Positions 11,754-55,921 of a stretch of DNA of 64,000 bases are shown here, piece by piece. Below the pieces are notes generated by a model, which was not told the DNA's origin, did no database searches, and saw only the letters and a list, made by a program, of their open reading frames with translations. Source of the DNA: Candidatus Poribacteria bacterium (GTDB taxonomy: Bacteria > Poribacteria > WGA-4E > WGA-3G); contig JAJECK010000099.1 of NCBI GenBank assembly GCA_022822085.1, positions 1 to 64,000 on the forward strand, read 5' to 3'. Positions within the stretch are counted from its first letter, which is position 1. Each line of letters starts with the position of its first letter. The translations under genes and the position numbers were made by a program.

Positions 11754-12036
11754 CAAAATAATCCTCCATAATAATAGTGGTTTCGCTTTAAAAATGTTCT
11801 TTATACATTAGGGCAGTATACATTATTTTTCTGAAAGTGTCAACGAAAAAGCAGAGGCATTCAATATCTTATAAATCGATTGTAAGATTGTGGTAATACA
11901 ACCGTTGAAAATGCTGCAAGTTTGAAGGAGAAATAATAGGTTAAATTGGTATGATCTCCACAGAATTCGGTTGAAATTTGTTGGTTGGATATGTTATTAT
12001 TTTCCCTAACGACCTGAATTGCGGAGGACAAGACTC

Positions 12037-32049: not shown

Positions 32050-32103
32050 AACTATAGTATTTCAGTTGAGTTAGAATGTACAAACAGATTGAAAAGGAAG
32101 ATA

Positions 32104-32877
32104 ATGAACGAAGAACGCAAAGGACTAATAGAAAAGATAACAAATTCTGATATTTGGAAATCTATTTTTCGACACGGATACGAAAAAACTGGTCGTCGTT
32201 ACACATTACAGGTTCTGCAAAATGTCTGGTTACATCTGCATCCTCCCCGTATTTCACGACATGCATTGAACTTCAGATTTACATGGTGTATGGGTGGAAT
32301 TACCTTCCTCATGTTCCTTGTTACAGCAGTTACAGGCGTCCTACTCATGTTCTATTATAGACCTGTAGCTGAATATGCTTTCCGAGATGTGCAAGCACTT
32401 GAATTTGACATTCCATTTGGAATGCTTCTTCGTAATATGCACCGTTGGGCTGCACACGGTATGGTCATTTCAGTTATGCTCCATATGTTTAGGGTTTTTT
32501 TGACAGGTTCATACAAAAAACCGCGTGAGTTCAATTGGGCAGTCGGTGTAATTCTGTTGCTCATCACATTTTTCTTGAGTTTTACGGGTTACTTGCTTCC
32601 GTGGGATCAACTTGCACTTTGGGCAGTTACAGTCGGGACAAACATGGCAAGTGCTACTCCGGTTTTAGGGAATGAAGGCCCCTTTACCCCCACAGATATT
32701 ATCACGCAATCCAATGACGTTAGATTTGCATTACTTGGCGGCACAATTGTTGGACCTTCTACGTTGTTAAGGTTCTATATCTTGCATTGCATTGCAGTCC
32801 CTTTAGTAGCAAGTGTTCTTATGGCACTACATTTCTGGCGTGTCCGTAAAGATGGCGGAATTTCAGGACCATTATAA
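32104..32877 (+). CDS. cytochrome b, N-terminal (b6-like) subunit
   Basis: A 257-residue membrane protein with four main helices. It carries the bis-histidine pattern of cytochrome b: two His in the second helix (NMHRWAAHGMVISVMLHMF region) and two in the fourth (YILHCIAVP and ALHFWRV). It binds two b haems and, with the next protein, forms the quinol-oxidising core. It stops after helix four, as in cytochrome b6, with the rest in the next gene. ATG 32104 has AAGGAAG just upstream; an in-frame TTG at 32089 lacks one. Confidence 0.93.
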   Translation: MNEERKGLIEKITNSDIWKSIFRHGYEKTGRRYTLQVLQNVWLHLHPPRISRHALNFRFTWCMGGITFLMFLVTAVTGVLLMFYYRPVAEYAFRDVQALEFDIPFGMLLRNMHRWAAHGMVISVMLHMFRVFLTGSYKKPREFNWAVGVILLLITFFLSFTGYLLPWDQLALWAVTVGTNMASATPVLGNEGPFTPTDIITQSNDVRFALLGGTIVGPSTLLRFYILHCIAVPLVASVLMALHFWRVRKDGGISGPL

Positions 32878-32956
32878 AACTTCTATGACATTTGCAGTAA
32901 GACATACATATTGGCAATTAAGGTGAATTACGATTTGAAGGAGATAGTATTCAATT

Positions 32957-33823
32957 ATGGATAATTTTCTATTATTAATAGAGAAACCTGATAATGTTCC
33001 GATTTTGGCTATGCTTTTTTTAATTCCATTTTTTATATGGTTAGCATACAGGCAAGCGCGCCAAACTGATCGAACAGGTGTCCCTTCAGATGCTGCTCTG
33101 AACGATAAGGTCTATGTTTGGCCTTATCTTTGTCGTAATGAATTTGTCTGTGCAATTATCATCATGCTCATCCTGGCGGTATGGTCAATTATGATTGACG
33201 CGCCACTTGAGGAGATGAGTAATCCCGCTAAAACCCCGAATCCCTCTAAAGCCCCCTGGTATTTTCTTGCTCTACAAGAAATGCTGGTCTATTTTGACCC
33301 TTGGATCGCGGGTGTGGTGTTACCAGGTCTCATCATCGTTGGTCTTATTGCTATTCCCTATATTGACATCAATCCAAAAGGCAAAGGATATTATACAATT
33401 AAAGAACGACCCTTCGCGCTTGCTGTGTTTAGTTTCGGATTTATCGTCCTGTGGATTGTCTTGATGATAGTAGGGACTTTCTTAAGGGGACCAGGATGGA
33501 ACTTATTTTTACCGTGGGAATATTGGGACCCGCATAAACTCGTCCCGTTGACAAATGTTAATTTGTCAGAGTTTATTGGGATACAAGATGCTATGACTGC
33601 GAATTTCTTCGGATTTGCAGTTGTTGCAGGATATTTCGCACTCGGACCGATTTTCTATTTTTGGAAGAGCAAAAGTAATAAATTTTTACAAGAACTCGGT
33701 CTTGTCAGATATGTCATCGTTTCATTTCTGTTTTTATGTATGATGGCACTTCCGATTAAGATGATTCTAAGGTTAGCATTGAATATAAAATATGTGTGGG
33801 TATCCCCTTGGTTCAACATCTAA
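32957..33823 (+). CDS. cytochrome b, C-terminal (subunit IV-like) subunit
   Basis: A 288-residue membrane protein with about six helices, an extra one at each end relative to b6f subunit IV (about 160 residues). The quinol-site motif normally written PEWY appears as KAPWYFLALQEML, followed by FDPWIAGVVLPG. It completes the split cytochrome b. A glutamate of PEWY takes part in proton transfer in classical complexes; here that position is Ala-Pro, as in some Planctomycetes/Nitrospira-type complexes. AAGGAGA is upstream. Confidence 0.9.
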   Translation: MDNFLLLIEKPDNVPILAMLFLIPFFIWLAYRQARQTDRTGVPSDAALNDKVYVWPYLCRNEFVCAIIIMLILAVWSIMIDAPLEEMSNPAKTPNPSKAPWYFLALQEMLVYFDPWIAGVVLPGLIIVGLIAIPYIDINPKGKGYYTIKERPFALAVFSFGFIVLWIVLMIVGTFLRGPGWNLFLPWEYWDPHKLVPLTNVNLSEFIGIQDAMTANFFGFAVVAGYFALGPIFYFWKSKSNKFLQELGLVRYVIVSFLFLCMMALPIKMILRLALNIKYVWVSPWFNI

Positions 33824-33906
33824 ATCACTACGCCTAATGTTATATATTACCATTTTGCTTTCAACATGTAACGTTAACAAAAGATGTCTTGGAGGTTAAG
33901 CAATTC

Positions 33907-36900
33907 GTGAAGAGCAAAAAAGAAATTCCAGCAGAAAAAAAATCTTATGCTGTTTTGTTCTTTATTCTATCAGCATTGTTAGGACTTGTTACTATATGGG
34001 GTTTCTGGGATGAAATGATCACACGTCGTCCTTGGAAAGAAATTCAACAACAGTTCTACCAATATGAATATGAAAAAACAAAGACTGAATTGGAAAATGC
34101 AAATAGAAATTTACCTGAAGAACCCTCCGAACCCGAGATTGATAAGAACACGTTGAGAGATTTAAATAAAGTTGTTAATGAAAAAAAGGTCGTTTTAGAC
34201 GAAGCCTTGCAAAAACGTAAGTTTGAGCAGAGTAAATCTGACGCAATTAATTATAAATATCAACATAGTCTGCATCTTGCACACGGTAAGCACACAGAGG
34301 CAGTTAACAAATGGAAAGAGAAACTGGACGAATTTGAAAAACGGATTGAAGGAGAACTCACCTCAGCTGTCTTACAAGCACAAAAAGAATACGCAGATGC
34401 TAATAAATCACTGGCAGAATTTTACCAGACCAGTGGTGCCTCTACCGAAGCACTCTCAACCTATCTAATCGCACAAAAAAATAATCCAACCGATACAGAA
34501 ATTGATGCGGGAATTGCTGCAGCGCAACAAGCACTTGCAGCACTTCAAGCGACACAGAAACAGTTTGATACAGTTAAGCGTCTTGAAGAGAAGTTAGCTG
34601 ATGTCGGTGGGATCAAACGCACGTTCCTTGGTAGCTTGTTGGAAAATCCGTTTCGAGAGACACGTACAATCGTTCAATATTATCTTGAAGAGTTTGATTA
34701 TACTGCGGACCGTTGTGCCACATGCCATTTCTCTGTTGATAGAAGTGGTTATGATACTAAGGCACAAGAGACATTTGAAATAGAAGGTGACGGTGAGAAT
34801 CTGGTCAAACATCAACTCTTACACCCCAAAGTAAAAGTGGGTAGTGAGACAATAGTTATTGATGGTTTTGATGCTGAACCTGAAGAATATGAACTGTCAG
34901 AGGATGGAGTCCTTACGTTCAAAGACACTGAAATATTTGGTGAAGTTGAAATATCTTATGAGACAGGTTACCGAGATGTCCTTCAAACTCATCCAGAACG
35001 CAATGTGCTCCTTGCCAAACATCCTGTTGAAAGATTTGGATGTACACCTTGTCATGGTGGACAGGGACACGGGTTAACCGCAAAATCTGCGCACGCGCTA
35101 ACACATGCGGAATTTTGGCTTACACCTGTGCTCGGTATGGATAAAGACACTGGAATGACATCTAAAGAGAAAAAAGGATATATGGAATCTAATTGCCGGC
35201 GTTGTCATGATGGTGTAATGAAATTAGACTTTGATGTTGACCCAGAAACTAACATCCCTGTGGACTATGCCCCCAATCTCTCCAAAGGTATGGATCTCTT
35301 TGAAAGTCTTGGATGTCATGGATGTCATGCTGTAGAAGGTTACAGTTCACTTGAAAAAATTGACAAAGTTGGTCCCTCTCTGAGCAAAGTTGGTAGTAAG
35401 GTTAACGATGTTAAATGGCTTGAGGAATGGATTAAACAACCTGAAGCTTACCTGCCAGAAACTACAATGCCCAACTTCTTTCCGGCTGATGGAATGCCAC
35501 AACTTGTCTATTTTAAAAATGGTGGGCAGCGAACAGGAATTGTTACAGAAACAGAAACAACATATACTCTAAAGACAGACGATGGAACATCTTATACTTA
35601 TGCTAAAGATGATGTGTTACGTGTTGTTGATGAGGTTAAGTCAATTGCAGCATATCTTGCAGATATGAAAGACGATTCTTTGGATGAATCACAAGGAGCA
35701 TATTCTAAATCTGAAAGCGCGATTCAGGCTGGTGAAGAGACAGTCAAGACTGTAGGATGTCTATCTTGTCATACTGTTGGTGAGTTAGGCAGTGATTTCG
35801 CTCCTGCGCTGGATAGTGTTGGTAATAAATTAAAACCGAGTTACCTACGCAAATGGATTGAAAATCCAAGAGAATATGACCCTAATACATCAATGCCGAG
35901 TTTACGTTTGAGTGACAGAGAACTTGACAATGTAGTGGCATATCTTATGAGTCTACAAAAAGAGACTCCATCACCTCTTTCTGATTCAATAGGTGAAGTT
36001 GATGCTGATGAAGGCGAAAAACTAGTTCGAACTTATGGGTGTTTCGGTTGCCATGAGATTCCAGGATTTGAGAATGAATCAAAGGTTGGGGCTGATCTTG
36101 GTGAATTCGGTGCAAAACTATATGATGAACTTGATTTCGGTGACACCTTAGAGGAGGATGTCCAACATAGTTGGCACGGATGGACAATAGGTAAACTTAC
36201 AAACCCAAGAAGATACCAAACACGTCGTATTGTATCCCGCATGCCAGTGTTCCAAAATCTGAAAAACAGTGTTGAAGATGCGAAAGCTATTGCAGTATTA
36301 TTGAAGAGTTTCCAACCACAACCATATCCATTGAATTATATTTACGAACATGCAGTTGAGTCTCATCGTGTAGAGAAACAGAATCAAATTGATGCTGGTA
36401 GAAGAGTTGTTAAAAAATACAACTGCACAGGATGTCACATAATAGAAGGTGAAGGCGGTGATTATCAAGACGTTATTGTATCACATGAAGGTTTAGATCA
36501 GATTACTGCTAAGCAGTTAGCCCCTCCACCTTTGCAAGCAGAAGGAGCACGTGTCTATCCAGATTGGTTATTTGATTTCCTCAAAGCACCATCAGATGTC
36601 CGTTATGGACTCAAGGTGCGTATGCCAACATTTGATATGTCGGATGAAGATGCAACAACCCTCGTAAAATACTTCTCAGCATTAGACGATGAACCGTTCC
36701 CTTATGAAACCATCGAACAACCAATGTCAACACGTGCTGAACTTAATGTCGGTAGACAGATCTTTAATGAGTTGAAATGTGACGCATGCCATCCATCACA
36801 AGGTGAGGTAATTCCCGATGGTAGCGACAAAGCAGGTAGACCGGATCTTTCATTGGCAAAAGAACGATTAAAAGCGGATTGGTTGATTGATTGGATGAAA

Positions 36901-37050
36901 GATCCGCAGAGTTTCCAAAAAGGTACTGCTATGCCACAAGCATGGCCTCTCGTTGGTGGACAGCACATGGCAGTTCCAGGTTACGCAAATGATGACGCTG
37001 AAAAACAGATCCGTTTGGTTCGTGATTATCTCATATCGTTAGGACGTTAG
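33907..37050 (+). CDS. membrane-anchored octahaem cytochrome c with coiled coil
   Basis: A 1047-residue protein: N-terminal membrane helix (about 14-38), a long coiled-coil region (about 50-230), then cytochrome c domains with eight CxxCH sites at Cys270, 379, 430, 470, 618, 712, 840 and 958. Several have downstream Met ligands (TTMPNF, TSMPS, SRMPVF, VRMPTF, TAMPQ). Its place after the Rieske and cytochrome b genes says it is the electron acceptor of that complex, replacing cytochrome c1/f. A beta-rich insert (about 538-578) interrupts the domain around haem 4 and recurs in the dihaem cytochrome and CoxB-like proteins of this island. GTG 33907 is used because GGAGG (33891-33895) precedes it; a TTG at 33889 would overlap it. 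Confidence 0.9.
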   Translation: MKSKKEIPAEKKSYAVLFFILSALLGLVTIWGFWDEMITRRPWKEIQQQFYQYEYEKTKTELENANRNLPEEPSEPEIDKNTLRDLNKVVNEKKVVLDEALQKRKFEQSKSDAINYKYQHSLHLAHGKHTEAVNKWKEKLDEFEKRIEGELTSAVLQAQKEYADANKSLAEFYQTSGASTEALSTYLIAQKNNPTDTEIDAGIAAAQQALAALQATQKQFDTVKRLEEKLADVGGIKRTFLGSLLENPFRETRTIVQYYLEEFDYTADRCATCHFSVDRSGYDTKAQETFEIEGDGENLVKHQLLHPKVKVGSETIVIDGFDAEPEEYELSEDGVLTFKDTEIFGEVEISYETGYRDVLQTHPERNVLLAKHPVERFGCTPCHGGQGHGLTAKSAHALTHAEFWLTPVLGMDKDTGMTSKEKKGYMESNCRRCHDGVMKLDFDVDPETNIPVDYAPNLSKGMDLFESLGCHGCHAVEGYSSLEKIDKVGPSLSKVGSKVNDVKWLEEWIKQPEAYLPETTMPNFFPADGMPQLVYFKNGGQRTGIVTETETTYTLKTDDGTSYTYAKDDVLRVVDEVKSIAAYLADMKDDSLDESQGAYSKSESAIQAGEETVKTVGCLSCHTVGELGSDFAPALDSVGNKLKPSYLRKWIENPREYDPNTSMPSLRLSDRELDNVVAYLMSLQKETPSPLSDSIGEVDADEGEKLVRTYGCFGCHEIPGFENESKVGADLGEFGAKLYDELDFGDTLEEDVQHSWHGWTIGKLTNPRRYQTRRIVSRMPVFQNLKNSVEDAKAIAVLLKSFQPQPYPLNYIYEHAVESHRVEKQNQIDAGRRVVKKYNCTGCHIIEGEGGDYQDVIVSHEGLDQITAKQLAPPPLQAEGARVYPDWLFDFLKAPSDVRYGLKVRMPTFDMSDEDATTLVKYFSALDDEPFPYETIEQPMSTRAELNVGRQIFNELKCDACHPSQGEVIPDGSDKAGRPDLSLAKERLKADWLIDWMKDPQSFQKGTAMPQAWPLVGGQHMAVPGYANDDAEKQIRLVRDYLISLGR

Positions 37051-38383: not shown

Positions 38384-40294
38384 ATGCGTTGTTGCTCTCC
38401 ACAAACTCTAAAGAGAATTTATTTCATACTTGCAGTGATGCTATTCGGCATTGTGTTATTTGCTGTGATACCAGCATTTGCACAGGATGTCACTGAAGAA
38501 GAATATCGTCCGTTCCCAATGATCGGTAGTCGGAATGCTGCTTGGATAGCTGCACAGTTACACCTGTTATTCGGTTCATTTATTCTTGGTGTCCCGATGT
38601 TTGCTGTTATCATTGAATTCATCGGTTGGAAAACTAAGGATGAACGGTACGACAGAATGGCACATGAATTCATCAAACTCTGTATGGGGGCATTCTCTAC
38701 AACTGCATTACTGGGTGGTGTTCTCGTCTTTATATTAGTATGGTGTTATCCAAAGGTATTGTTCAAGTTGAGTGGAATATTTGGACCGACAATGATATTT
38801 TATGTCGTCCTGTTTTTTGGCGAAACATTTACACTATACATCTATTACTACGGTTGGGATAAGATGCAGGGCAGGTTTAAATGGATCCACCTCGTTCTTG
38901 GTGTCTTGTTAAACCTGTGGGGGACAGCCATTATGTTTGTATCAAATACATGGCTCACCTATCAGACCAGTCCTGCAACACAATTTAAGAAGCTGTCCGA
39001 TGAAACAAAGGAAGCCTGGATTGAGAGTGTATTATCTCAAAATCCAGAGATGACCCGTGCAGAAGTTCTTGATGGGATTACTGGAAATTCAGTTATTCCC
39101 CTACACAATGAGACGACAGGTGAATTCTTAGCAAATGTATGGGAGGCGGTCAACAACTTCACATGGATGCCTGTCAATATCCACAGACTCATAGGGAACA
39201 TTGCATTTGGTGGCTCTATTGTAGCTGCTTATGCTGCATTTCGGTTTCTCGTTGCAAAAACTGAAGAGGACAAATCTCATTATGATTGGATGGGGTATAA
39301 TGGAAACTTCATTGCACTGATAGGTCTGATCCCGCTCCCTTTTGCGGGGTATTGGTTGGGTCGAGAGATCTACATGTTCAACAACACCATGGGCATCAAT
39401 ATGATGGGTAATCTTTTTTCTTGGTTATTTATCATACAAGCTGTGATGATCGGTGTTTTATTTATTGGTGCAAACTACTATCTATGGTCTGGCATGGGAA
39501 GAATTGAGGGGGCAGAGATATATGCACGTTACCGGCCTTATATGATTGCAACCATCGTCATCTGTGTGGCTGTATGGATGACTCCTCGAACACTATCAAC
39601 AATTTCCTCAGCATCTGAACTGAGTGCAATGGGAGGAGGAAACCATCCACATCTCGGATTCTTCGGCTTGATGACTGCAAAAAATACGGTGGTTAATATC
39701 GTTATTCTGACAACTTTCTTGAGTTTTCTTTTTTATAGAAGGTCCGGAAAAACACCTACTGCAAGTTGGAAAAACATTGGGAACATAGCAATTTCAGTAA
39801 TTTTCTTTTTAGGGGTTGTCTCAATTGTCGTTCTTGGTATCGTTGGGTTTAGTAAGAAACTTCCACCTCTCTACCGTGAAAATGTGTTGACACCTTGGCA
39901 GGTGATGGTTGCACTCGGTGTCATGGTAGTTGTTACAATCATTGACATCTTCATGTATAGAAAAGCAACTACCGCTGGAACAATTAAATGGGGAGAAATG
40001 ACCGAACGATCACAATACGTTCTAATTTTACTTGCAATTACTTTTACCTCATTGATGGGACTAATGGGATATGCCCGTTCAGGTCTGCGTGAAGGGTGGC
40101 ATATCTTTGGTGTTCAGAGGGATACTTCCGTTGACGCATTTACACCAACTCTTAGTAATGCAGTTAACATGGTGGCAATTATAATGGTTATTTTCTTTGC
40201 ACTTGTCGGGTTTATCTTCTGGCTTGGACTTTGGGGTGAAAAGAAAAAACAGCAGGCAGTACCGATAGAAGCAGCTGCTGAAAGTGACGATTAA
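38384..40294 (+). CDS. cytochrome bd-like oxidase subunit I
   Basis: A 636-residue membrane protein with about 14 helices. It resembles CydA: AAWIAAQLHLLFGSF (haem His), NIHRLIGNIAFGGS (second haem His), WLTYQTSPA after helix four. A CydB partner is not present. Divergent CydA-like proteins next to c-type cytochromes are known from Nitrospira and Planctomycetes, where they may form a cytochrome-c-linked complex and not a classical quinol oxidase. Here two or three cytochrome c genes follow at once. Whether it reduces oxygen cannot be told from sequence. Confidence 0.8.
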   Translation: MRCCSPQTLKRIYFILAVMLFGIVLFAVIPAFAQDVTEEEYRPFPMIGSRNAAWIAAQLHLLFGSFILGVPMFAVIIEFIGWKTKDERYDRMAHEFIKLCMGAFSTTALLGGVLVFILVWCYPKVLFKLSGIFGPTMIFYVVLFFGETFTLYIYYYGWDKMQGRFKWIHLVLGVLLNLWGTAIMFVSNTWLTYQTSPATQFKKLSDETKEAWIESVLSQNPEMTRAEVLDGITGNSVIPLHNETTGEFLANVWEAVNNFTWMPVNIHRLIGNIAFGGSIVAAYAAFRFLVAKTEEDKSHYDWMGYNGNFIALIGLIPLPFAGYWLGREIYMFNNTMGINMMGNLFSWLFIIQAVMIGVLFIGANYYLWSGMGRIEGAEIYARYRPYMIATIVICVAVWMTPRTLSTISSASELSAMGGGNHPHLGFFGLMTAKNTVVNIVILTTFLSFLFYRRSGKTPTASWKNIGNIAISVIFFLGVVSIVVLGIVGFSKKLPPLYRENVLTPWQVMVALGVMVVVTIIDIFMYRKATTAGTIKWGEMTERSQYVLILLAITFTSLMGLMGYARSGLREGWHIFGVQRDTSVDAFTPTLSNAVNMVAIIMVIFFALVGFIFWLGLWGEKKKQQAVPIEAAAESDD

Positions 40295-40309
40295 TTGGAG
40301 ATTAGGACC

Positions 40310-41845
40310 ATGAAAAATACACTTGTCCGAGTTGCATGTCTTATCATAATGGTAGTGAGTTTCATTGCCTTTCTTGCCAAGGCACCCGCCTTTCCGATTG
40401 CATCTGAAAACCTGTTACCATGGTCAGTCTGGTTTACTATATCAGTAATAGTGAACATGGTATTGTGGTTTCCAGTCATGAAACTTGTCACGTTCTCATT
40501 AGGTGTTATATGGTTTTATGCCTTCATTACCGCTCTTGTTCCCGATACATCAACAGCAACAGGTCCGGTAACAGAACTTGATTGGTCCGATCCTGATGCA
40601 GTCGTAGAAATTGGAGCCTCTATTTTCAATACAAAAGGACAGTGCGCAGCATGTCATACATTGGATACCTCTGCCCCAAAAGGTAGATGCCCCGATTTGA
40701 CAGATATCGGTGTTAATGCCGCCAACCGTGTAGCCGGAATGGATGCAAAGGCATATCTAATAGAATCTCTGTATGATCCGGGTAAATTTTTGGTACCTGG
40801 TTATGGTAAGATTATGCCAGAAGTATGGAAACGACCAATTGAACTCACTAAATTAGAGATTGCAGCGGTTATTGCTTTTCTTCAGAGTCAAGGAGGCGAA
40901 ATTGACCCGGAACCGTTTGATGAACCCATTGATAGAGCAAATATTGAGACAACCGCAGAAGCACTACCACCACTCCTTACTGGAGATCCTGATGCCGGAA
41001 GAAAAGTCTTTATAGATCAAGCATGTGTATCGTGTCATGTTGTCAAAGGTGTTGAAAATCCAAAAGCAGGAGAAGCAAATGAGGACTTTGAAGTTGTCAC
41101 CGCGCCAGAACTCACTGAAATTGCTGCATTTAATGAAGTCCGTTATCTTGAAGAATCTATCCTAAAACCACATGCACAGATTGTTAGCGGATATGGAACA
41201 GCAAAAATCAGAGCAAATGGAACAACTTATGAAGGCACTATAGTTTCACAAGATGATGAAAAAGTTGTCATAAAAACAAAAGCAGCCGATGGTACTGAAG
41301 AGGAACATACCATCTTATTTAGTGAATTTGATGAGGAACCAGTTACGGAAGAAGATATTGTGAATTTAAAAGCAGAGGGATTTTTCACGTTAACCATTAC
41401 CCCTAAAGATTCAAATACACCGGTAACTGGAGAAATCGTTGAAGAAAGTACCGACACGGTAACCCTTAAGATTGGTGAGGAGAATCAAACTTTTTCAAAA
41501 ACGGATGTGAAAAAGATGATGACTCTTACCATCTTTGATGCTGATCCGGTCACTGGAGAATATGTTTCGGGAACGAGGGATGATGAATTCGTCTTAATAG
41601 TTGATGGCAATGAAGAGATTATTGATGGCTTTGATGTTGATGAAGAAGTCTTAGCAGTTGGTTCAGGAAAAAGGTTGCTTGTCAAATCTCCAATGCCAGA
41701 TAACTTTCCAGATTCATTATCTGTTACACAGATGGCAGATTTAGTAGCTTTCTTAAGTACATTAACTGGTGCTACAGAAGAAGAGACAACGGAAAATACT
41801 GATCAATCTGAATCGACTGATTCATCAGAACAACCAACAGAATAA
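40310..41845 (+). CDS. membrane-anchored dihaem cytochrome c with triplicated beta insert
   Basis: A 511-residue protein: two or three N-terminal membrane helices (about 5-75), haem sites CAACHT (Cys112) and CVSCHV (Cys239), Met ligands in KIMPEVW and KSPMPDNF. Between the second haem and its Met lies an insert of about 160 residues with three related copies of a beta unit (G.IV....D.V.L....E....K.DV). The same unit is in the CoxB-like protein. The C-terminus is Thr/Glu/Ser-rich. GGAG lies ten bases before ATG 40310; an in-frame TTG at 40295 overlaps it. 15 bases after the CydA-like gene, so cotranscribed; probably its electron partner. Confidence 0.88.
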   Translation: MKNTLVRVACLIIMVVSFIAFLAKAPAFPIASENLLPWSVWFTISVIVNMVLWFPVMKLVTFSLGVIWFYAFITALVPDTSTATGPVTELDWSDPDAVVEIGASIFNTKGQCAACHTLDTSAPKGRCPDLTDIGVNAANRVAGMDAKAYLIESLYDPGKFLVPGYGKIMPEVWKRPIELTKLEIAAVIAFLQSQGGEIDPEPFDEPIDRANIETTAEALPPLLTGDPDAGRKVFIDQACVSCHVVKGVENPKAGEANEDFEVVTAPELTEIAAFNEVRYLEESILKPHAQIVSGYGTAKIRANGTTYEGTIVSQDDEKVVIKTKAADGTEEEHTILFSEFDEEPVTEEDIVNLKAEGFFTLTITPKDSNTPVTGEIVEESTDTVTLKIGEENQTFSKTDVKKMMTLTIFDADPVTGEYVSGTRDDEFVLIVDGNEEIIDGFDVDEEVLAVGSGKRLLVKSPMPDNFPDSLSVTQMADLVAFLSTLTGATEEETTENTDQSESTDSSEQPTE

Positions 41846-41873: not shown

Positions 41874-42656
41874 ATGAAAAGAATATCACTTTTCACAATT
41901 TGTTTCGTAATATTCATTGCGTCTTGGGTATTTCTACGATTTGTCGTTGGTGGGTTTATTTCAGTGCCAATACCAAGTAGCGTGATTGCGATGTATATGG
42001 CGTTGATTTTTGTAGCTATTCTGGTGCATGTCTCTGTTGAAGATACGAGATTTTCAGAGTTTATCAGACCTATTCACGAAACGCTTGTTGATGAAAATCG
42101 TAAGACGAGACGGATCGTTCTGGCAGTGTTGATTCCTATTCTGATGTTGGGGTATACATATACAAATATTGCTCAAAAGGCAATTCCTGCAGGAGATCCG
42201 CGGGTTGCACATCCGGTTCCTCCATCCGAATTTATATTAACGTATAAAGAAAAGGAAATCGGTACAATGCAGGAGGTAGAAAATCCTTATAGACATTATG
42301 AAAAAGACAGTCCTGAAGAATTTAAATCTCATATAGAAAATGGACGGCGCGTCTATTATGATAACTGCTTCTATTGTCATGGGGATCATCTTGATGGACA
42401 GGGGCATTTGGCACACGGATTTCAACCCTTACCTGCTAATTTCCAGGACCCAGGTATCATTCCCAATTTCCAAGAAGCTTTCTTCTTTTGGCGGATAAGT
42501 AAAGGTGGACCTGGTTTACCAAATAATGGTACTCCATGGAATTCTGCAATGCCTGTGTGGGAAGAAATCTTAACTGAAGAAGAAATTTGGGATGTAATCC
42601 TCTTTTTATCTCATTACACAGGATATTCATACCGCCCATCAGGGGAAGCACATTAA
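41874..42656 (+). CDS. membrane-anchored monohaem cytochrome c
   Basis: A 260-residue protein with three predicted N-terminal helices (about 5-25, 35-55, 80-98) and a C-terminal cytochrome c domain with CFYCHG (Cys165). The probable Met ligand is in SAMPVWEE. The domain faces outward. It sits 28 bases after the dihaem cytochrome and 2 bases before the EB_dh-like cytochrome, so all belong to one operon. Confidence 0.9.
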   Translation: MKRISLFTICFVIFIASWVFLRFVVGGFISVPIPSSVIAMYMALIFVAILVHVSVEDTRFSEFIRPIHETLVDENRKTRRIVLAVLIPILMLGYTYTNIAQKAIPAGDPRVAHPVPPSEFILTYKEKEIGTMQEVENPYRHYEKDSPEEFKSHIENGRRVYYDNCFYCHGDHLDGQGHLAHGFQPLPANFQDPGIIPNFQEAFFFWRISKGGPGLPNNGTPWNSAMPVWEEILTEEEIWDVILFLSHYTGYSYRPSGEAH

Positions 42657-42658
42657 TC

Positions 42659-44389
42659 ATGAGAGTAACATTTTTTGTCCTATTTCTCCTATTTTCAAGT
42701 TTGTTTACAGTAATTCTTGTTGCTTATGCGCAAGAGACTCCTGAAGTTTCTGAACGTGGGAAAGAGGTATATGAGGAAAGTTGCGCACACTGCCACGGTA
42801 TTGAAGGACGTGGAGATGGCAGTGCAGCTGAAAACCTGCTACCGAGACCGAGAGACTTCACTGGAGGTGTGTACAAAATCAGATCTACAGAAAGTGGTCA
42901 ATTGCCTACCGATCAAGACTTATTTGATATCATTACCAACGGTATGCCCGGTTCATCAATGCCTGAGTGGGAAAGTGCACTCAGTGCTAATGACCGTTGG
43001 GAACTCGTTGCGTATGTAAAAACTTTCTATAGTGGGTTTCAAGAATTAGAAGAGACTGAAACAACACCAAGACTAATTAATTTGACTGGAAAAGTAAAAT
43101 ACTCTGAAAAAAGCGTTGAAATTGGAAAAGTCCTTTACACTGATCTTGGTTGTATTGAATGTCACGGAAATGTAGGTAGAGGTGATGGAACTTCCGCACC
43201 CACATTAGTTGATGTTTGGGATTTTAGGACATGGCCTGCTAATCTAACGCAGGGATGGACATTTAGAGGTGGTTCAAGTACAGAAGATATTTTCAAGCGA
43301 TTTATCGGTGGAATTGCGGGTTCACCAATGCCTGCATTTGAGGGAGACACTTTTTATCATTTTGGCTTGACACCAGAAGAATCAAAAAACTTTGCGCTAT
43401 TAGAAAAAAAAGTAGAAAATGAAGAAGAGTTGACTGAAGAGGAACAAGAAGAATACGACAAACTTTATGAAAAATGGGATACTACCGTTCTTGCTGCACT
43501 TGATCGTGCGGAAGGAACTGAGCTAACCCCGGAAGCACAGAAAATCTATGATAATGCAATGAAAGATGTTTTTGAAAAAAGTTGGCATCTGGCGAATTAT
43601 GTCAAATCTCTTTCACCAGAAAGACGACCTAAATCCGCTATCGGCAAGAATGTACTTAGATCGCAGTACAAGGAGGGAGATTTACCTACTTTGGATGATG
43701 CTGAATGGGGGACGCTTACATCAAGTTATTACCCACTTGTTGGGCAAGTCATAGTTGAATCCAGACAGTTCAATCCAACTATAGACTCAGTGAATGTCAA
43801 ATCCTTCTATAATGATACTGAAGTAGCGTTCTTATTCACATGGGACGACAGAACGAACAATACTACCGTAGAAGAAACTGAAGATTTTGGAACATCATAC
43901 ATAGATGGCTTGGCAATTCAGTTTCCTGTTAAAGTACCTAAAGGTCCAACTGATGAAAAACCTTATTTCCTATGGGGAGGGAAAAAGCCTGTTTATCTGT
44001 GGCAGTGGATGGCTTCTGAACCTGAGTCAATTAAAGAGCTCACTGCTAAAGGGATAAACAACGCAGAGGAACAAGAAGATCAAGGAACTGTTCAAGTAAA
44101 TAGTGAATACAAAGATGGGCAATATAGATTATGGGTTAAACGTGCATTAAAAACTGAGGATAAAAAAGACTTGCAAATTGAACCTACTGTATTTGTGCCA
44201 ATAGCATTTTCCGCATGGGATGGTGCTAACGGTGATGTTGACACAAAACGTGGTATATCAAGTTGGTACACCTTTGTTTTGGAACCTGTTCCTTCGTCAA
44301 GAAGGTTTATTTATCCACCTATAGTTGCATTGCTCTCATTAGGGTTATTAGTTGGTTTGCGACAGTTTGTGCAACGAAGGAATACATAA
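42659..44389 (+). CDS. dihaem cytochrome c fused to ethylbenzene-dehydrogenase-like haem b domain
   Basis: A 576-residue exported protein. Signal peptide (about 1-24), two cytochrome c domains with CAHCHG (Cys42) and CIECHG (Cys165), then a C-terminal region (about 340-540) like the haem-b-binding gamma subunit of ethylbenzene/DMS dehydrogenases (PLVGQVIVE, VAFLFTWDD, GKKPVYLWQW, SAWDGANGD). A C-terminal membrane helix follows (about 550-568). Such fusions accompany DMSO-reductase-family or Nxr-type complexes; no molybdenum subunit is nearby, so here it probably serves the respiratory chain. The ATG at 42659 is two bases after the preceding stop and has AGGGGAAG upstream; the frame opens earlier inside that gene. 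Confidence 0.85.
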   Translation: MRVTFFVLFLLFSSLFTVILVAYAQETPEVSERGKEVYEESCAHCHGIEGRGDGSAAENLLPRPRDFTGGVYKIRSTESGQLPTDQDLFDIITNGMPGSSMPEWESALSANDRWELVAYVKTFYSGFQELEETETTPRLINLTGKVKYSEKSVEIGKVLYTDLGCIECHGNVGRGDGTSAPTLVDVWDFRTWPANLTQGWTFRGGSSTEDIFKRFIGGIAGSPMPAFEGDTFYHFGLTPEESKNFALLEKKVENEEELTEEEQEEYDKLYEKWDTTVLAALDRAEGTELTPEAQKIYDNAMKDVFEKSWHLANYVKSLSPERRPKSAIGKNVLRSQYKEGDLPTLDDAEWGTLTSSYYPLVGQVIVESRQFNPTIDSVNVKSFYNDTEVAFLFTWDDRTNNTTVEETEDFGTSYIDGLAIQFPVKVPKGPTDEKPYFLWGGKKPVYLWQWMASEPESIKELTAKGINNAEEQEDQGTVQVNSEYKDGQYRLWVKRALKTEDKKDLQIEPTVFVPIAFSAWDGANGDVDTKRGISSWYTFVLEPVPSSRRFIYPPIVALLSLGLLVGLRQFVQRRNT

Positions 44390-47100: not shown

Positions 47101-48006
47101 ATGCTACGATGGCTCCCAGTGAATATATCATCGTTCGGAGAAGGCGTTGACGATCTTTTTACGCTTATCTATTGGATTACGTTTGTAGTGTTTGTCCTCG
47201 TTATGGCAACACTGGTTTATTTTCTAATAAATTACCGCCATCGTGAAGGTGTCCGTGCTACGTACATTGAAGGAAGTACGTGGCTTGAAATCATTTGGAC
47301 AGCTGCGACAACTATAATTGTGTTCGGTCTTGCGATGTTGAGTTTCCCGCAATGGAATAATATAAAATCTCCATCTGAGTTTCCACAAAATCCTGATCTT
47401 GTGGTTCAGGTGAGAGCTAAGCAGTTTAATTGGAAAGTAATCCATCCCGGTCCTGATAATGAATTCAACACAGAAGCTGGTCGTGATGGTGAATTAGGCA
47501 CAGTGGATGATCCAGGTGATGATCTGAAGAAACTTGATGAATTGCATGTACCTGTCCACAAAACTGTGCATGTGAGATTAATATCGGAAGATGTTATCCA
47601 TAGTTTTTTCGTTCCGGAATTACGTTTAAAACAAGATGCATTACCCAATCGATTTATCAATGTCTGGTTTGATACCGATGAATTAGATGTGAATCCAATC
47701 ACAGATTTTAAAAATGTCAGGAAAAAGGGATGCTTTACTGGAACACTTACATTTAATGATGCGAATACACCTTCTGTCATGGGGAATATCGTTTTTGAGA
47801 CTGATGATGAATTGACAGTCAGTGTTGATGGGGAAATTAACACATACAACAAATCAGATGTAAAACAACTTGACGTAACGGTCTGGCGTTATGAAATGCC
47901 ATGTGCAGAACTTTGTGGTTTTGGGCACTCTACTATGGTTGGTCATCTATATGTACATACACAAGAGAGTTATGATGCATGGGTAGCGGAAGAGTTGTCC
48001 GAGTAG
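47101..48006 (+). CDS. ctaC: cytochrome c oxidase subunit II (CuA), with unusual insert
   Basis: A 301-residue protein with two N-terminal membrane helices (about 20-42 and 60-82) and a CuA cupredoxin domain. The copper ligands are intact: His in DVIHSFF and the CAELCGFGHSTM cluster (Cys268, Cys272). CuA takes electrons from cytochrome c or cupredoxin. About 60 residues between NVWFDTD and PCAELC are not in normal subunit II: they form a beta unit (FTGTLTFNDANTP ... NTYNKSDVKQL) matching copy two in the dihaem cytochrome. No haem c domain is fused. ATG 47101 is preferred to an adjacent TTG, with AAGGAG upstream. Confidence 0.93.
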   Translation: MLRWLPVNISSFGEGVDDLFTLIYWITFVVFVLVMATLVYFLINYRHREGVRATYIEGSTWLEIIWTAATTIIVFGLAMLSFPQWNNIKSPSEFPQNPDLVVQVRAKQFNWKVIHPGPDNEFNTEAGRDGELGTVDDPGDDLKKLDELHVPVHKTVHVRLISEDVIHSFFVPELRLKQDALPNRFINVWFDTDELDVNPITDFKNVRKKGCFTGTLTFNDANTPSVMGNIVFETDDELTVSVDGEINTYNKSDVKQLDVTVWRYEMPCAELCGFGHSTMVGHLYVHTQESYDAWVAEELSE

Positions 48007-48081: not shown

Positions 48082-50043
48082 ATGCAGGAAAACGATAATA
48101 GATCACATGAACACGACAATGATGAAAATCATGATGCTGCACACGAAGATCATGATACAGTTGAACATGCACCTGAGCATAACGGTGATGACCACGATGC
48201 ACATGCACATCATCATGAAGAAGGTTTTATAAGAAAATATATCTTCTCTCTTGATCACAAAATGATTGGGAAGCAGTTCCTGATTTACGGACTGATTATG
48301 CTATTTCTCGGTGGTGGGCTCGCTATGCTATTTAGATGGCAGCTGGCGTATCCTGAAATACCTGAACTTGAGGGACAGGCAGGACGTGGAGCAAAACCGT
48401 TACCATTTCTTGGATTATCCGATGAATATCAGGAAACAGGAGAACCAAAGACTTGGGCAGACAGATATTGGGAGAAAGTTTTCGACTCTGAAGAAACTGA
48501 ATGGACTGAAGAATTCATTCCAGCTGGGGTTATGACAGGTGCATTCTATAATATGCTGTTCACCATGCATGCCACTATTATGGTGTTTTTTGTAGTTGTG
48601 CCTATTTTAGTTGGAGCATTCGGTAATTTCCTAATCCCACTCATGATTGGGACACGGGATATGGCGTTTCCCGTGCTGAATATGCTCTCTTTCTGGTTGG
48701 CAGTTTTGGCTGCAGTTGTCATGGTATCCGGATTTTTCGTTCCAGGTGGACATGCGTCCGCTGGGTGGACAGGATATGCACCGTTATCTGTTGATCCTGG
48801 TTGGACAGGTGTCGGATGGGGTTTGAACTTATGGGCAATTAGTTTATTGATACAAGGTTTCTCATCGCTTGTAGGTTCAATAAATTATATTACAACCATC
48901 ATCAATATGCGTGCACCAGGTATGACATTCTTCAGACTGCCTCTTGTCATCTGGGCACTTTTCATCGTTGCAATCCTATTGCTTCTGGCTTTCCCAGTTT
49001 TATCTTCCGCATTAGCACTCCTAATCTTTGATCGACTTGCTGGAACAACATTCTTCTCTACAACAGCTGGAGGTGGTGGTGATCCGTTACTTTGGCAGCA
49101 CTTATTCTGGTTCTTCGGACACCCCGAAGTATACATCCTTATATTACCGGGGATGGGTATTGCATCCGAATTGATACCGGTATTCTCACGTAAACCTATT
49201 TTCGGATATCGTTCTATGGTCTATGCTATGATTGCAATTGCATTCTTAGGGTGGATTGTATGGGGGCATCATATGTTCCAAAGTGGAATGCAACCTGGAA
49301 TGGGGGCATTCTTTATGACCACAACGATGCTTATTGCAGTGCCTTCTGCGATCAAGACATTTAACTGGCTTGGAACTATGTACCGTGGTTCTATTCGATT
49401 CACAACGCCAATGCTACACGCGATAGCGTTTGTGTCTATGTTTGTAATTGGTGGACTTAGCGGTATCTATATGGCAAATACCCCTGTTGATGTTGCTATA
49501 CACGATACATATTTTATTGTAGCACACATCCATTATGTTGTTTTTGGTGGTAGTCTGTTTGCAATTTTCGGTGGAATAATTTTCTGGTTCCCAAAAATGT
49601 ATGGACGTTATATGAACGATACGCTATGTAAGATACATTTTTGGTTGACGTTTATTGCTTTTAATTGCACCTTCTTCCCGATGCACATTCTCGGTGTTGG
49701 TTTGCACAGACGGCGAATTGATAATCCAATGGCAACAGAGCATCTGTTTGGATTTGAAGGAATGAATATCTTTATTACAATGAGTGCATTTACGCTTGGG
49801 GTTGTCCAACTTATCTTAGCGTTCAACTTTGTCTGGAGTATTTATAAGGGTAAAGTTGCTGAAAAGAACCCGTGGCATGTCAACACTTTGGAATGGGAAG
49901 CACCCACACCCGTACCCCATGGAAACTTTGCACAAATACCTACTGTTTATCGTGGACCTTATGAATACAGCGTCCCTGGTGAAGAATCTGATTGGCTTCC
50001 ACAGGCGCAACCAGAGCATGCCCCAGCGAGTGCAGGTGATTAA
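48082..50043 (+). CDS. ctaD: heme-copper oxidase subunit I
   Basis: A 653-residue catalytic subunit, type A1 by GHPEVY (the proton-path Glu and the Tyr cross-linked to His). Haem and CuB ligands are visible: TMHATIM, WGHHMFQ, AHIHYVVFGG. It reduces oxygen to water at haem a3-CuB and pumps protons. Unusual is an N-terminal tail of about 50 residues very rich in His, Asp and Glu, perhaps a copper-collecting tail, and a long acidic segment between the first two helices (about 90-150). AAAAGGAG upstream. The whole set through 55921 is one oxidase locus. Confidence 0.97.
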   Translation: MQENDNRSHEHDNDENHDAAHEDHDTVEHAPEHNGDDHDAHAHHHEEGFIRKYIFSLDHKMIGKQFLIYGLIMLFLGGGLAMLFRWQLAYPEIPELEGQAGRGAKPLPFLGLSDEYQETGEPKTWADRYWEKVFDSEETEWTEEFIPAGVMTGAFYNMLFTMHATIMVFFVVVPILVGAFGNFLIPLMIGTRDMAFPVLNMLSFWLAVLAAVVMVSGFFVPGGHASAGWTGYAPLSVDPGWTGVGWGLNLWAISLLIQGFSSLVGSINYITTIINMRAPGMTFFRLPLVIWALFIVAILLLLAFPVLSSALALLIFDRLAGTTFFSTTAGGGGDPLLWQHLFWFFGHPEVYILILPGMGIASELIPVFSRKPIFGYRSMVYAMIAIAFLGWIVWGHHMFQSGMQPGMGAFFMTTTMLIAVPSAIKTFNWLGTMYRGSIRFTTPMLHAIAFVSMFVIGGLSGIYMANTPVDVAIHDTYFIVAHIHYVVFGGSLFAIFGGIIFWFPKMYGRYMNDTLCKIHFWLTFIAFNCTFFPMHILGVGLHRRRIDNPMATEHLFGFEGMNIFITMSAFTLGVVQLILAFNFVWSIYKGKVAEKNPWHVNTLEWEAPTPVPHGNFAQIPTVYRGPYEYSVPGEESDWLPQAQPEHAPASAGD

Positions 50044-52255: not shown

Positions 52256-52864
52256 TTGAGTTCGTGGATGATGGTACAGCGAGAAATGGAAATTGCTGAA
52301 AATCGCCCATTTAGTAATGCCAAATTAGGAGTAATTATACTTCTTGGTGCTGAGACGATGTTGTTTGCAGGACTAATTGGAGCATTTTTGGTATATCGGA
52401 TGGGAAATGCTACATGGCCGCCACTGTCCCACGCGGACATTCAACTCCCTCGCTTGGTAACAGGAATCAATACCGGGTATCTAATTATAAGTGGAATTAC
52501 AATGTATCTGTCACTTCGTATGATTCAGATTGATTTGCCCAAGTTATTCAGCAATGTGTTGTTGATTCTCACAGGAACATTAGGATTAGTGTTTCTAATA
52601 ATCCAAGGCAGTGAATGGGTCCAACTTATCGGTAAAGGATTGACACTTCAATCTGGTGTTTATGGTGCTACATTTTATGTACTTATCGGTTGCCATGCCG
52701 TTCATGTGTTCGGAGCAGTTATCTGGTTAACGATTGTTATTGGTATGTCATTGGCAGGCCGTTTTACATCTGATAATCACACAGCAGTTGAAACTTGCAC
52801 AATTTATTGGATTTATGTTGTTGCACTATGGCCTATACTTTACTTTTTGGTGTATTTCGCTTGA
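52256..52864 (+). CDS. ctaE: heme-copper oxidase subunit III, copy 1
   Basis: A 202-residue membrane protein with five helices. It matches subunit III: AKLGVIILLGAETMLFAGLIGAFLVY, YGATFYVLIGCHAVHVFGA, AVETCTIYWIYVVALWPILYFLVYF. The conserved helix-three Glu is present (GSEWVQL). A TTG at 52256 with AAGGGGA upstream is used; ATG 52268 or 52271 are alternatives. Subunit III stabilises the catalytic centre. A second copy is at 54251-54901. Confidence 0.9.
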   Translation: MSSWMMVQREMEIAENRPFSNAKLGVIILLGAETMLFAGLIGAFLVYRMGNATWPPLSHADIQLPRLVTGINTGYLIISGITMYLSLRMIQIDLPKLFSNVLLILTGTLGLVFLIIQGSEWVQLIGKGLTLQSGVYGATFYVLIGCHAVHVFGAVIWLTIVIGMSLAGRFTSDNHTAVETCTIYWIYVVALWPILYFLVYFA

Positions 52865-52875
52865 AGGAGCATCTG

Positions 52876-53094
52876 ATGATACGGAAAATAGTCTTGAGTC
52901 TACTTATTGCTGCACTTATTATTGCAAGTATACCACTTTCTCTTGAGGCATGTCCAGCATGCAAAAACTTAGATGACCCGATCGCAAGAGGATTCAATTG
53001 GAGTGTGCTGTTTATGATGGCGATGCCATTTGCCGTATTTGGTGTCATCGGTGGGAGTGTTTTCTATACTTACAGACGTGCTTACAAAGAATGA
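52876..53094 (+). CDS. small exported/membrane protein with CPAC motif
   Basis: A 72-residue protein with a signal sequence (about 5-25), CPAC right after the likely cleavage site, and one membrane helix (about 44-65, MMAMPFAVFGVIGGSVFYTY) ending in basic residues. AAGGAG is six bases before the ATG. Similar small CPAC proteins occur in oxidase loci of Bacteroidetes and related bacteria; the two cysteines could bind copper or form a disulfide for CuA assembly. That role is an inference. Confidence 0.75.
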   Translation: MIRKIVLSLLIAALIIASIPLSLEACPACKNLDDPIARGFNWSVLFMMAMPFAVFGVIGGSVFYTYRRAYKE

Positions 53095-53135
53095 ACATAG
53101 TGCTTAGTCAAGTTCTAATTCATGGGACTGAAAGG

Positions 53136-53201
53136 GTCGGGAATCGGAGTTCCCTCGGACCATAATCAACCCATCGGTAGGAGCGATCTCCGAATCGCGA
53201 C
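53136..53201. repeat. inverted repeat inside the oxidase locus
   Basis: GTCGGGAATCGGAGTTCCCT... (53136-53160) is an imperfect inverted partner of 53177-53201 (GTAGGAGCGATCTCCGAATC...), matching at about 17 of 25 positions. It sits between the CPAC-protein gene and the DNA methyltransferase gene and may mark an insertion boundary. Confidence 0.5.
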
Positions 53202-53268
53202 AGACAATAATATGTTGACAAAGCAATAGTATAACCACATGTAAATTTCGGAGTAAATCAAAGATACA

Positions 53269-54138
53269 ATGAAAAATAGTGGTAACTCTTGGATTCAGTG
53301 TGTTGATTGTCGCAAAGGTATGACCAAAATTGCCACGCAGAGTGTATCACTTATTTTGACGGATCCGCCCTATTTTCTTGATGGAATGGATGACAGTTGG
53401 GATACAAACCGTATAAAATCTAGACAGAAAAAGGGTGTCATCGGCGGGCTGCCTGTTGGCATGAAGTTTGACAAAGCACAAGGACAGAACTTATACCGAT
53501 TCCTGTTACCGATTGCTGAACAGTGGATAAGAATAATCAAACCTGGAGGATTTGTTCTCTGTTTTTCACATCCAAGACTATCACATCGCGCAACATTGGC
53601 ATTAGAGGATGTCGGTTTTGAAATTCGGGATATGTTGGCATGGCGATATGAAGGACAAGCAAAAGCATTTAAACAAGATCATTTCGTTAGAAAGAGAAAT
53701 CTACCGAGTGATGAAACAGAGAGGATAATCAAAGCATTAGGAGGAAGAAAAACGCCTCAACTTAAACCGCAGATGGAGTTGATTGTTTTGGCACAGTCTC
53801 CTCGTGAGGGAACATTCGTGGACAACTGGTTACAACATCTGACTGGACTCATTGATGTGTCGGACCCTATAGTAGAAAATGATCGTTTTCCAGGAACTGT
53901 GATTCCTGTTGCTAAACCTCGTGAGAAATTTGGACACATTGCTGCTAAACCTGTTCCGCTGCTGCGACATCTCATTCGGATATTTTCGGTAGAAGGCTCA
54001 ACTGTATGTGATCCTTTTGCAGGCTCCGGTTCCACTGGAATAGCAGCACATAAGGAAGGACGCGACTTTATCGGGTTTGAGATAGACAAGAATATGGCAA
54101 TAATGGCAAACAATAGAATAGAAATCGGAACAAAATAA
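53269..54138 (+). CDS. site-specific DNA methyltransferase, beta-class order
   Basis: A 289-residue DNA (N6-adenine or N4-cytosine) methyltransferase. Catalytic motif TDPPYF (DPPY, about residues 31-37) comes before the SAM-binding motif DPFAGSGSTG (about 246-255), the beta-class order. The 200 residues between include the target-recognition region. No restriction enzyme gene is next to it. It interrupts the oxidase gene run, with 174 bases before it and over 100 after, while its neighbours are tightly packed; it may be a later insertion. It could be a solitary regulatory methyltransferase or a partner for the TaqI-like specificity protein at 12037, but nothing ties them. Confidence 0.9.
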   Translation: MKNSGNSWIQCVDCRKGMTKIATQSVSLILTDPPYFLDGMDDSWDTNRIKSRQKKGVIGGLPVGMKFDKAQGQNLYRFLLPIAEQWIRIIKPGGFVLCFSHPRLSHRATLALEDVGFEIRDMLAWRYEGQAKAFKQDHFVRKRNLPSDETERIIKALGGRKTPQLKPQMELIVLAQSPREGTFVDNWLQHLTGLIDVSDPIVENDRFPGTVIPVAKPREKFGHIAAKPVPLLRHLIRIFSVEGSTVCDPFAGSGSTGIAAHKEGRDFIGFEIDKNMAIMANNRIEIGTK

Positions 54139-54250
54139 TAATCAGTTTCTTCCAAATATGTAGTGTATATTTTCCTTGTAAATTGGACTTCTATATTTAC
54201 TTATTTGATAAATTTAATTGGTATTACAAAAATTAAAGGAGTTTAGTATA

Positions 54251-54901
54251 GTGGAACAAGTTACCACTTTAGAACATACTGAAGACGTATACGAACCTTC
54301 GCTTACGCCTGATAGTCTCGGCAAACTCGGCATGTGGGTCTTCCTGATTGGGGATACCATGTCGTTTGGGGCACTGCTTGCAGCTTATGCAGCACTCCGA
54401 GGTGGGGCAGGGGCAATCGGATGGGTGCCACCAAGTGAAATATTAGGTATTGAACTGACAGCTTTTATGACGTTCCTGTTGATTTGCAGTAGCGTTACAA
54501 TGGTTAAAGCGTTAGAGTCAATTCAAAAAGGCAACGTAGGTAGAATGTGCGACTTCCTCGGGTTAACGATTTTAGGAGGCATAATTTTCCTCGGATTACA
54601 GGCGTATGAGTGGACACACCTGATTAAACATGGGTTAACTTTAACTGGTATTCCTGACCACGGACTTACAGGTGCAGCAATTAGCGGTTCTACCCTATTT
54701 GGACCTACTTTCTATGCTATCACAGGATTCCATGGATTACACGTAACTGGTGGTGTGATTTACCTCATAGTTATATTGAGAAATGGGTGGTCAGGACGTT
54801 ATACTGCAGAATTTAACCATGAAGTCGAGATTGTAGGACTCTATTGGCACTTCGTAGACCTGATTTGGATTATGGTTTTCACCTTTATCTATTTATTATA
54901 G
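54251..54901 (+). CDS. ctaE: heme-copper oxidase subunit III, copy 2
   Basis: A 216-residue membrane protein with about seven helices, from the subunit III family: KLGMWVFLIGDTMSFGALLAAYAALR, AYEWTHLI (conserved Glu), LFGPTFYAITGFHGLHVTGGVIYL, VGLYWHFVDLIWIMVFTFIYLL. Diverged from copy 1 and closer to the usual caa3 type ending in YWHFVDxxWI. The GTG at 54251 has AAAGGAG nine bases upstream; the frame opens at 54218 without one. Confidence 0.92.
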   Translation: MEQVTTLEHTEDVYEPSLTPDSLGKLGMWVFLIGDTMSFGALLAAYAALRGGAGAIGWVPPSEILGIELTAFMTFLLICSSVTMVKALESIQKGNVGRMCDFLGLTILGGIIFLGLQAYEWTHLIKHGLTLTGIPDHGLTGAAISGSTLFGPTFYAITGFHGLHVTGGVIYLIVILRNGWSGRYTAEFNHEVEIVGLYWHFVDLIWIMVFTFIYLL

Positions 54902-55291: not shown

Positions 55292-55921
55292 ATGGATAAC
55301 CTGAAGGCTAAACCTAAATTTGATAAAACTATTATCCCTTGGGTTGTGTTGGGGATAATTATAATCAGCATTGCCTTACTTAATTTGTGGTCAGTCTTCA
55401 CCAATAAAGATAAATCTGAGCAAGAGAAATTAGTTGCAAGTGTTCCCCAGTTTAGTTTGACCAACCAGCAGGGTGAAGAAATAAGTTTATCTGATTTAAA
55501 TGGAAAAGTCTGGATTGCCGATTTTATTTTTACAAATTGCCCTACAATTTGTCCAATCATGACGAAGGAGATGGCAACATTACAATCAGAATTTGATTAT
55601 CAAGATGTTAACTTCGTATCTTTCACGGTTGACCCTGTACGAGATACATCTGAAGTTCTTGCAAGTTACGCTAAACAATTTGGGGCAGATGAAAAAACTT
55701 GGCATTTTCTGACTGGTGAAAAGGAACAAATATATAAATTGGCAAATGAAGGTTTTAAATTAGCCGCTGCACAACATGAAGGGGCGTTTCCACATAGTAG
55801 AAAGTTTGTCCTCATTTCCTCTGTAGGGGAAATATATGGATATTACGATAGCCATAGTAAAGCAGAAATGGTGAAATTACGTAAAGATATCAATACGCTT
55901 CACAAAAAAATTAGGATATGA
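55292..55921 (+). CDS. SCO1/SenC/PrrC-family copper chaperone
   Basis: A 209-residue protein anchored by an N-terminal helix (about 15-33) with a thioredoxin-like domain outside. It carries the SCO metal motif TNCPTICP (CxxxC) and the distant His in FPHSRKFVLI. SCO proteins deliver or reduce copper for the CuA site of subunit II. Located at the end of the oxidase locus, as common. Overlaps the next gene by four bases. Confidence 0.95.
   Translation: MDNLKAKPKFDKTIIPWVVLGIIIISIALLNLWSVFTNKDKSEQEKLVASVPQFSLTNQQGEEISLSDLNGKVWIADFIFTNCPTICPIMTKEMATLQSEFDYQDVNFVSFTVDPVRDTSEVLASYAKQFGADEKTWHFLTGEKEQIYKLANEGFKLAAAQHEGAFPHSRKFVLISSVGEIYGYYDSHSKAEMVKLRKDINTLHKKIRI

Follow-up and report, generated by a model that had tools for sequence, protein, structure and literature searches.

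The window analysed here, a stretch of 64,000 nucleotides from a genome of Candidatus Poribacteria (5.6 Mb in 158 contigs), encodes a subunit II of cytochrome c oxidase (CoxB) with an insert of about 70 residues in the hairpin that leads to the CuA cysteines. Insert-bearing CoxBs were found in a few sponge-dwelling Poribacteria. This locus raises the questions of where the segment came from, how it reached the species that carry it, and what it may do beside a CuA site. A preliminary description of the window had proposed five copies of one beta-rich insert (one in CoxB, three in a dihaem cytochrome c and one in an octahaem cytochrome), spread between unrelated redox folds.

An oxidase subunit with an enlarged hairpin

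CoxB is encoded together with CoxA in a respiratory cluster (Table 1) that also encodes additional cytochromes and contains copper-protein-like genes and genes for oxidase subunits III and IV. The same cluster includes a relative of cytochrome bd subunit I (38384-40294) and a protein in which two c-type haem motifs are joined to a haem b domain like that of the ethylbenzene dehydrogenase gamma subunit (42587-44389). Within the oxidase cluster, a DNA methyltransferase gene (PF01555, 53269-54138) is found between two COX3-like genes (52256-54901). Elsewhere in the window, positions 12019-14292 encode a possible defence protein that combines a TIR domain, TPR repeats and a TaqI-like specificity domain.

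Table 1. Coordinates of the features discussed, given as positions in the window except for the fusion proteins of family f4
Feature	Position	Strand	Basis or remark
Rieske protein and cytochrome b halves	31549-33823		respiratory cluster
Octahaem cytochrome	33889-37050		respiratory cluster
Beta-like segment of the octahaem cytochrome	35491..35625	+	after the TMP Met ligand
Dihaem cytochrome c, its second haem domain carrying three beta modules in tandem; very probable source family of the CoxB insert	40295..41845	+	profile against 7zs0 E 3.3e-49; Foldseek E 1e-10
Beta module 1, corresponding to the nose domain in Kustd1711	41189..41329	+	
Beta module 2, within this genome the nearest relative of the CoxB insert	41324..41518	+	
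Beta module 3	41519..41668	+	
CoxB, cytochrome c oxidase subunit II, 302 aa	47098..48006	+	PF02790 E 2e-10; PF00116 E 4.5e-10
CuA ligand His168	47599..47601	+	DVIHSFF motif
Entire segment (residues 192-263) found where other poribacterial CoxBs have a short hairpin tip, EATKAG	47671..47886	+	orthologue alignment
Homologous core of the CoxB insert (residues 195-258), predicted Hfq/SH3-like five-strand module, very probably from cytochrome module 2	47680..47871	+	
CuA ligand loop CAELCGFGHSTM, intact (C269, E271, C273, H277, M280)	47902..47937	+	
CoxA, subunit I	48082..50043	+	PF00115 E 5e-151
SCO1/SenC (CuA assembly factor family)	55292..55921	+	PF02630 E 1.5e-30; oxidase cluster
Fusion proteins of family f4, about 1195 aa	L128:5726-9319; L129:5346-8924; L130		

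As in other members of the COX2 family (PF00116, PF02790, TIGR02866), this CoxB has a transmembrane hairpin, a cupredoxin domain (the fold being recovered by Foldseek against subunit II structures, E 2e-11), a CoxA neighbour and the complete CuA ligand set, that is, H168 and the five residues of the ligand loop. It differs from that family in the insert of about 70 residues, which follows the first CuA histidine, H168, and precedes the CuA cysteines, C269 and C273. The insert truncates the Pfam COX2 match to positions 47-93 of 120, and the TIGR02866 match, split into two stretches that flank it, reaches 147.2 bits and misses the cut-off of 147.7 by half a bit. With a short Pfam match and a sub-cut-off NCBIfam score, insert-bearing CoxBs may be misnamed by automatic pipelines. 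A whole-genome search gave a single PF00116 match, which makes this CoxB the sole COX2-family protein found in the genome; a second, normal CoxB that would render it dispensable was looked for there and not found. Similarly, CoxA is the sole COX1-family protein found in the genome. A second insertion relative to other poribacterial CoxBs, of 14 residues, was seen at residues 125-145 (47470-47530), where model confidence is low; this is approximately where cox2 is reportedly enlarged in other lineages.

A module related to those of the dihaem cytochrome

The gene for the dihaem cytochrome sits 6 kb upstream of that for CoxB, and the insert of CoxB resembles the second module of this cytochrome. 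In a single-sequence search, CoxB residues 195-258 matched module 2 with E 2e-7 and 42% identity. A module profile, built with rows from both CoxB and the cytochrome, scored 110 bits for CoxB and 104 bits for the dihaem cytochrome in this genome, the next segments reaching 14.1 and 12.7 bits. When profiles were compared with each other, the cytochrome side being drawn from 50 species, module 2 matched the CoxB inserts with P 4.4e-20 (99.3%), while a control segment of CoxB gave P 0.2-0.8. Against the cytochrome modules of related species, the inserts reach up to 55-58% amino-acid and 70% nucleotide identity. Small beta barrels do look alike, and the preliminary description had itself raised chance similarity of unrelated folds as the alternative; given the profile comparison with its control segment and these identities, a chance likeness among generic beta segments is refuted for CoxB and module 2, and we give it practically no weight.

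That caution still applies to the segment of the octahaem cytochrome. It scores 12.7 bits (E 0.6) against the module profile and gives P 0.002-0.11 in profile-profile comparisons with the modules. The preliminary description had placed it between the haem core and the Met ligand; it actually lies after the TMP methionine (35458-35478), between that residue and the last helix. Its membership of the module set is therefore unsupported, and the five copies proposed become four. The first and third copies in the dihaem cytochrome, on the other hand, are real tandem modules: module 1 matches module 2 with P 2.7e-5 and module 2 matches module 3 with P 2.5e-4, the direct match between 1 and 3 being weak, and strands are predicted over residues 302-351, 363-413 and 419-460 with block-mean pLDDT of 78-91.

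The insert itself is predicted to form a compact barrel. The AlphaFold2 model, computed from CoxB with 53 further rows that included cytochrome-module rows, has a mean pLDDT of 82 and a pTM of 0.79; over residues 201-270, the block-mean pLDDT is 86-97 and five strands are predicted (212-219, 227-234, 238-243, 246-251 and 255-268), as expected of an Hfq/SH3-like barrel. In agreement with this, the module sequences match SH3-like small barrels, namely the RimP C-terminal domain (E 2.5e-4), Rpp29 (E 0.015) and the myosin N-terminal domain. In the model, the fifth strand runs unbroken into the cupredoxin strand that ends at C269, which suggests that the module is probably held rigidly beside the CuA domain. 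The insert had been described as lying just before the CuA cysteines; it is indeed adjacent to them in sequence, but a strand of about seven residues intervenes.

A solved relative of the cytochrome is Kustd1711, a dihaem cytochrome c of Kuenenia stuttgartiensis (PDB 7zs0), whose C-terminal haem domain bears a 'nose domain' of five strands with an Hfq-like fold (PMC11791136). Its authors noted a strongly negative surface, nose domain included, and suggested that this serves partner interactions (PMC11791136). The two proteins share a two-haem architecture, and the nose, inserted in the second haem domain, is the counterpart of poribacterial module 1 (scores in Table 1). However, Kustd1711 has one nose module where the poribacterial cytochrome has three, and it belongs to an nxr cluster, with no CoxB copy reported, whereas an aa3 cluster is present here. 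The insert matches the nose sequence directly with P 0.005 only, so that the link goes via modules 1 and 2. The second haem domain of the cytochrome with module 1 also matches the TIGR02603 haem-binding domain (E 4e-16, 59.1 bits, under the 68.15-bit cut-off), which bears out the suggested relationship to planctomycete haem-binding domains; the cytochrome differs from that family in its three tandem modules, and the TIGR02603 profile found no match in CoxB.

Capture of the module and its spread among species

To establish how widely the insert occurs, the CoxB tail including it was compared with all 73 genomes of the order. It was matched over its full length in four of them: the window's own genome (G000) and G010, which belong to one genus, and G026 and G066, which belong to another. 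The remaining CoxBs align only before and after it. In a first set of aligned CoxBs, those without the insert have, with the single exception of G006, a short hairpin or loop at this place, typically VWFEATKAGRYEIPC or VWFEATKAGRYEIPCAELCG; a short loop is likewise present in two genomes from a more distant family, and the outgroup families are without the insert. Three CoxBs besides that of the window thus carry the segment, but the insert is rare and is not a general trait of CoxB. An assembly or binning artefact is unlikely, as the four genomes are separate, the insert of G010 comes from a single-contig assembly, and two of the four are in separate public records. In G006, the CoxB gene (L070:3781-4551, minus strand) has an unrelated low-complexity, DETEP-rich insert, KKPDETEPDETEPDETEPDETEPEVKR, in exactly the same hairpin, which indicates that this loop accepts insertions repeatedly.

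The module profile, in turn, matched the dihaem cytochrome in nearly all members of families f1, f2 and f4, and it did not find the module in families outside these three. Beyond dihaem cytochromes, its only matches were the four CoxBs and a protein of family f4, in which a beta-propeller like that of sugar dehydrogenases and further haem motifs are joined to a dihaem cytochrome paralogue that has the beta modules. A scan of the genome collection with the module profile and one short pattern gave matches only in Poribacteria.

When 50 cytochrome module-2 segments and the four inserts were placed in one tree (62 columns), the inserts formed one clade (98/88) nested among the module-2 sequences of the family, and a DNA tree recovered the same grouping (87/90). 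This nesting points to the cytochrome as the source. The CoxB insert is thus, very probably, a copy of module 2 captured within the poribacterial family, and the single beta insert that had been noticed in cytochrome c and cupredoxin folds acquires a direction, from a c-type haem domain to a place within the cupredoxin domain of CoxB. In Poribacteria, the nose known from Kustd1711 has become three modules, the second of which was copied into CoxB.

The number of captures is less firmly settled, although one is probable from the sequences and is, in our judgement, clearly preferred to separate ones. All four inserts share an extra residue after NTP and a VKQL end, and in all four insert-bearing CoxBs a Trp immediately precedes the point where the RYE/RFE strand resumes. 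That genera g1 and g2 each captured the module independently, in the same loop, appears unlikely: these common features and the single insert clade argue against it, as does a 2-residue insertion in the cytochrome module of G000 that is absent from the CoxB insert of the same genome. In favour of separate events, the CoxB cores of one pair are distant from those of the other, and AU tests do not reject separate placements (p 0.24 with g2 inserts beside g2 modules, p 0.16 with g1 inserts beside g1 modules), a result that is due to the availability of only 62 columns. The G000/G010 insert branch is long in the module tree, and insert identity between the genera is only 48-53%. A direct repeat flanking the insert, GTNTGG (Val-Trp), is too short to serve as evidence of mechanism.

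The genes around the insert tell a history of their own. Neither the CoxB cores nor the CoxA proteins of the four insert-bearing species group together; AU tests gave p 0.0496 for a grouping of all four CoxB cores and, for CoxA, rejected G026 and G066 as sisters (p 0.008). In sliding comparisons of nucleotide identity along coxB, these two genomes are mutually nearest only along a tract of about 0.6 kb that surrounds the insert and extends just past it, with up to 98% identity where the next best is 90.5%. In the flanks on both sides, the nearest relative of G026 is mostly G080, G077 or G023, and that of G066 is mostly G021 or G027. A shared tract between flanks with different nearest relatives indicates that homologous recombination moved the insert-bearing stretch of coxB between species of this genus.

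For the other genus, an AU test gave p 0.03 against the grouping of the G000/G010 CoxB core with the CoxA sisters of these genomes, G006 and G016, which hints that the coxB of G000 and G010 is itself recombinant. A single capture would imply transfer between genera, and the conflict between the CoxB core and CoxA in G000/G010 is compatible with such a transfer. An ancient insert in the ancestor of the family, lost many times, would equally place it in two genera; it is very improbable, since many precise losses would be needed, each restoring the same short hairpin, and since the shared tract with differing flanks points to movement by recombination and the outgroup families are without the insert.

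What the module may do in CoxB

The insert has been kept under constraint. Its dN/dS is 0.14 between G000 and G010 (95% interval 0.05-0.35), compared with 0.15 for the rest of CoxB, and 0.20 between G026 and G066 (0.05-0.57). These ratios indicate that the insert belongs to a constrained protein and that its sequence is kept, and they imply no particular function.

The explanation that we favour as a whole, with moderate confidence, is as follows. Module 2 of the dihaem cytochrome was very probably copied in frame into the tip of the beta-hairpin from which the chain runs to the CuA cysteines, and the insert-bearing coxB stretch then passed between species by homologous recombination. The module is predicted to fold as a compact five-strand barrel and would stand as a rigid domain at the side of CoxB's periplasmic part, where it could offer a protein-protein contact surface that helps to orient the oxidase to its electron donor, most simply the cytochromes of the same cluster. 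This last element, a docking surface, is put forward tentatively. The CoxB inserts carry a net charge of -5 to -7, whereas the cytochrome modules average -10.6 (range -16 to -8), so that part of the supposed docking charge would have been lost. A plain gain of docking charge is therefore disfavoured, with shape or self-association as the alternatives. In the insert-bearing species, no faster evolution was seen in module 2 of the cytochrome itself, and species without the insert run the same cluster.

The main rival to a docking role is nearly as likely. The module may be a tolerated passenger that an insertion-accepting loop acquired by accident and that is kept because it is well folded and harmless; purifying selection would then reflect the need of an essential protein to fold, and no new function. 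The rarity and patchiness of the insert fit such an origin, as do the unrelated insert of G006 in the same loop, the neighbours that manage without one and the fall in acidity after capture. On the other side stand the low dN/dS in both lineages, the travel of the module between species along with coxB sequence and its persistence over substantial divergence (48-53% identity between genera).

A more specific form of contact, to which we assign a small probability, is that the CoxB and cytochrome modules constitute an Hfq/Sm-like self-associating set, in which edge-to-edge pairing fixes the haems of the dihaem cytochrome beside CuA. If true, this would be a modular plug that evolved by copying the partner's own module and was traded between species.

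A handle for CuA assembly is improbable. Such a module would recruit a copper chaperone, for instance the SCO1 protein of the cluster, or shield the CuA loop during metallation, and both its place in the sequence between the first and the remaining CuA ligands and the SCO1 gene within the cluster would suit this. However, the four inserts have no conserved Cys, His or Met, the source module is found in a c-type cytochrome without a known copper site, and insert-free species have the same oxidase.

Enlarged CoxBs are known from other systems. In caa3 oxidases (e.g., PDB 2yev), CoxB gains a whole cytochrome c haem domain at its C terminus; the poribacterial protein is likewise enlarged by a cytochrome part, but the addition is only a haem-free side module and lies inside the cupredoxin fold. 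Large in-frame insertions in the soluble domain of cox2 have been described in ciliates, brown algae and bacteria (discussed in PMC5374615), where their reported position is between the region of the haem-patch Trp and the CuA half (PMC5374615). They show the same tolerance of the soluble domain for large in-frame additions; the poribacterial insert differs from them in its place, after the first CuA His and ahead of the CuA Cys loop, and in having a source traceable to a cytochrome. Searches of the open-access literature found no description of a CoxB with a cytochrome side module ahead of its CuA cysteines; the domain itself is known, and its transplantation beside CuA appears to be unreported.

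This is a genuine and well-resolved case in which a domain was transplanted from one protein of an electron-transfer chain to another, giving known domain types a new arrangement. Transfers of this kind are usually inferred for ancient events; here, the donor family, the recipient, the empty site, the insertion site and the later spread are all visible among close genomes. In a highly conserved oxidase subunit, the hairpin that precedes the CuA cysteines can take a whole folded domain, and the insert-bearing variant is able to spread by recombination, which means that respiratory proteins can exchange whole parts. More generally, oxidases that have the module can be paired with matched ones that lack it, and such pairs are suited to testing the docking role of nose domains, which so far has only been suggested.
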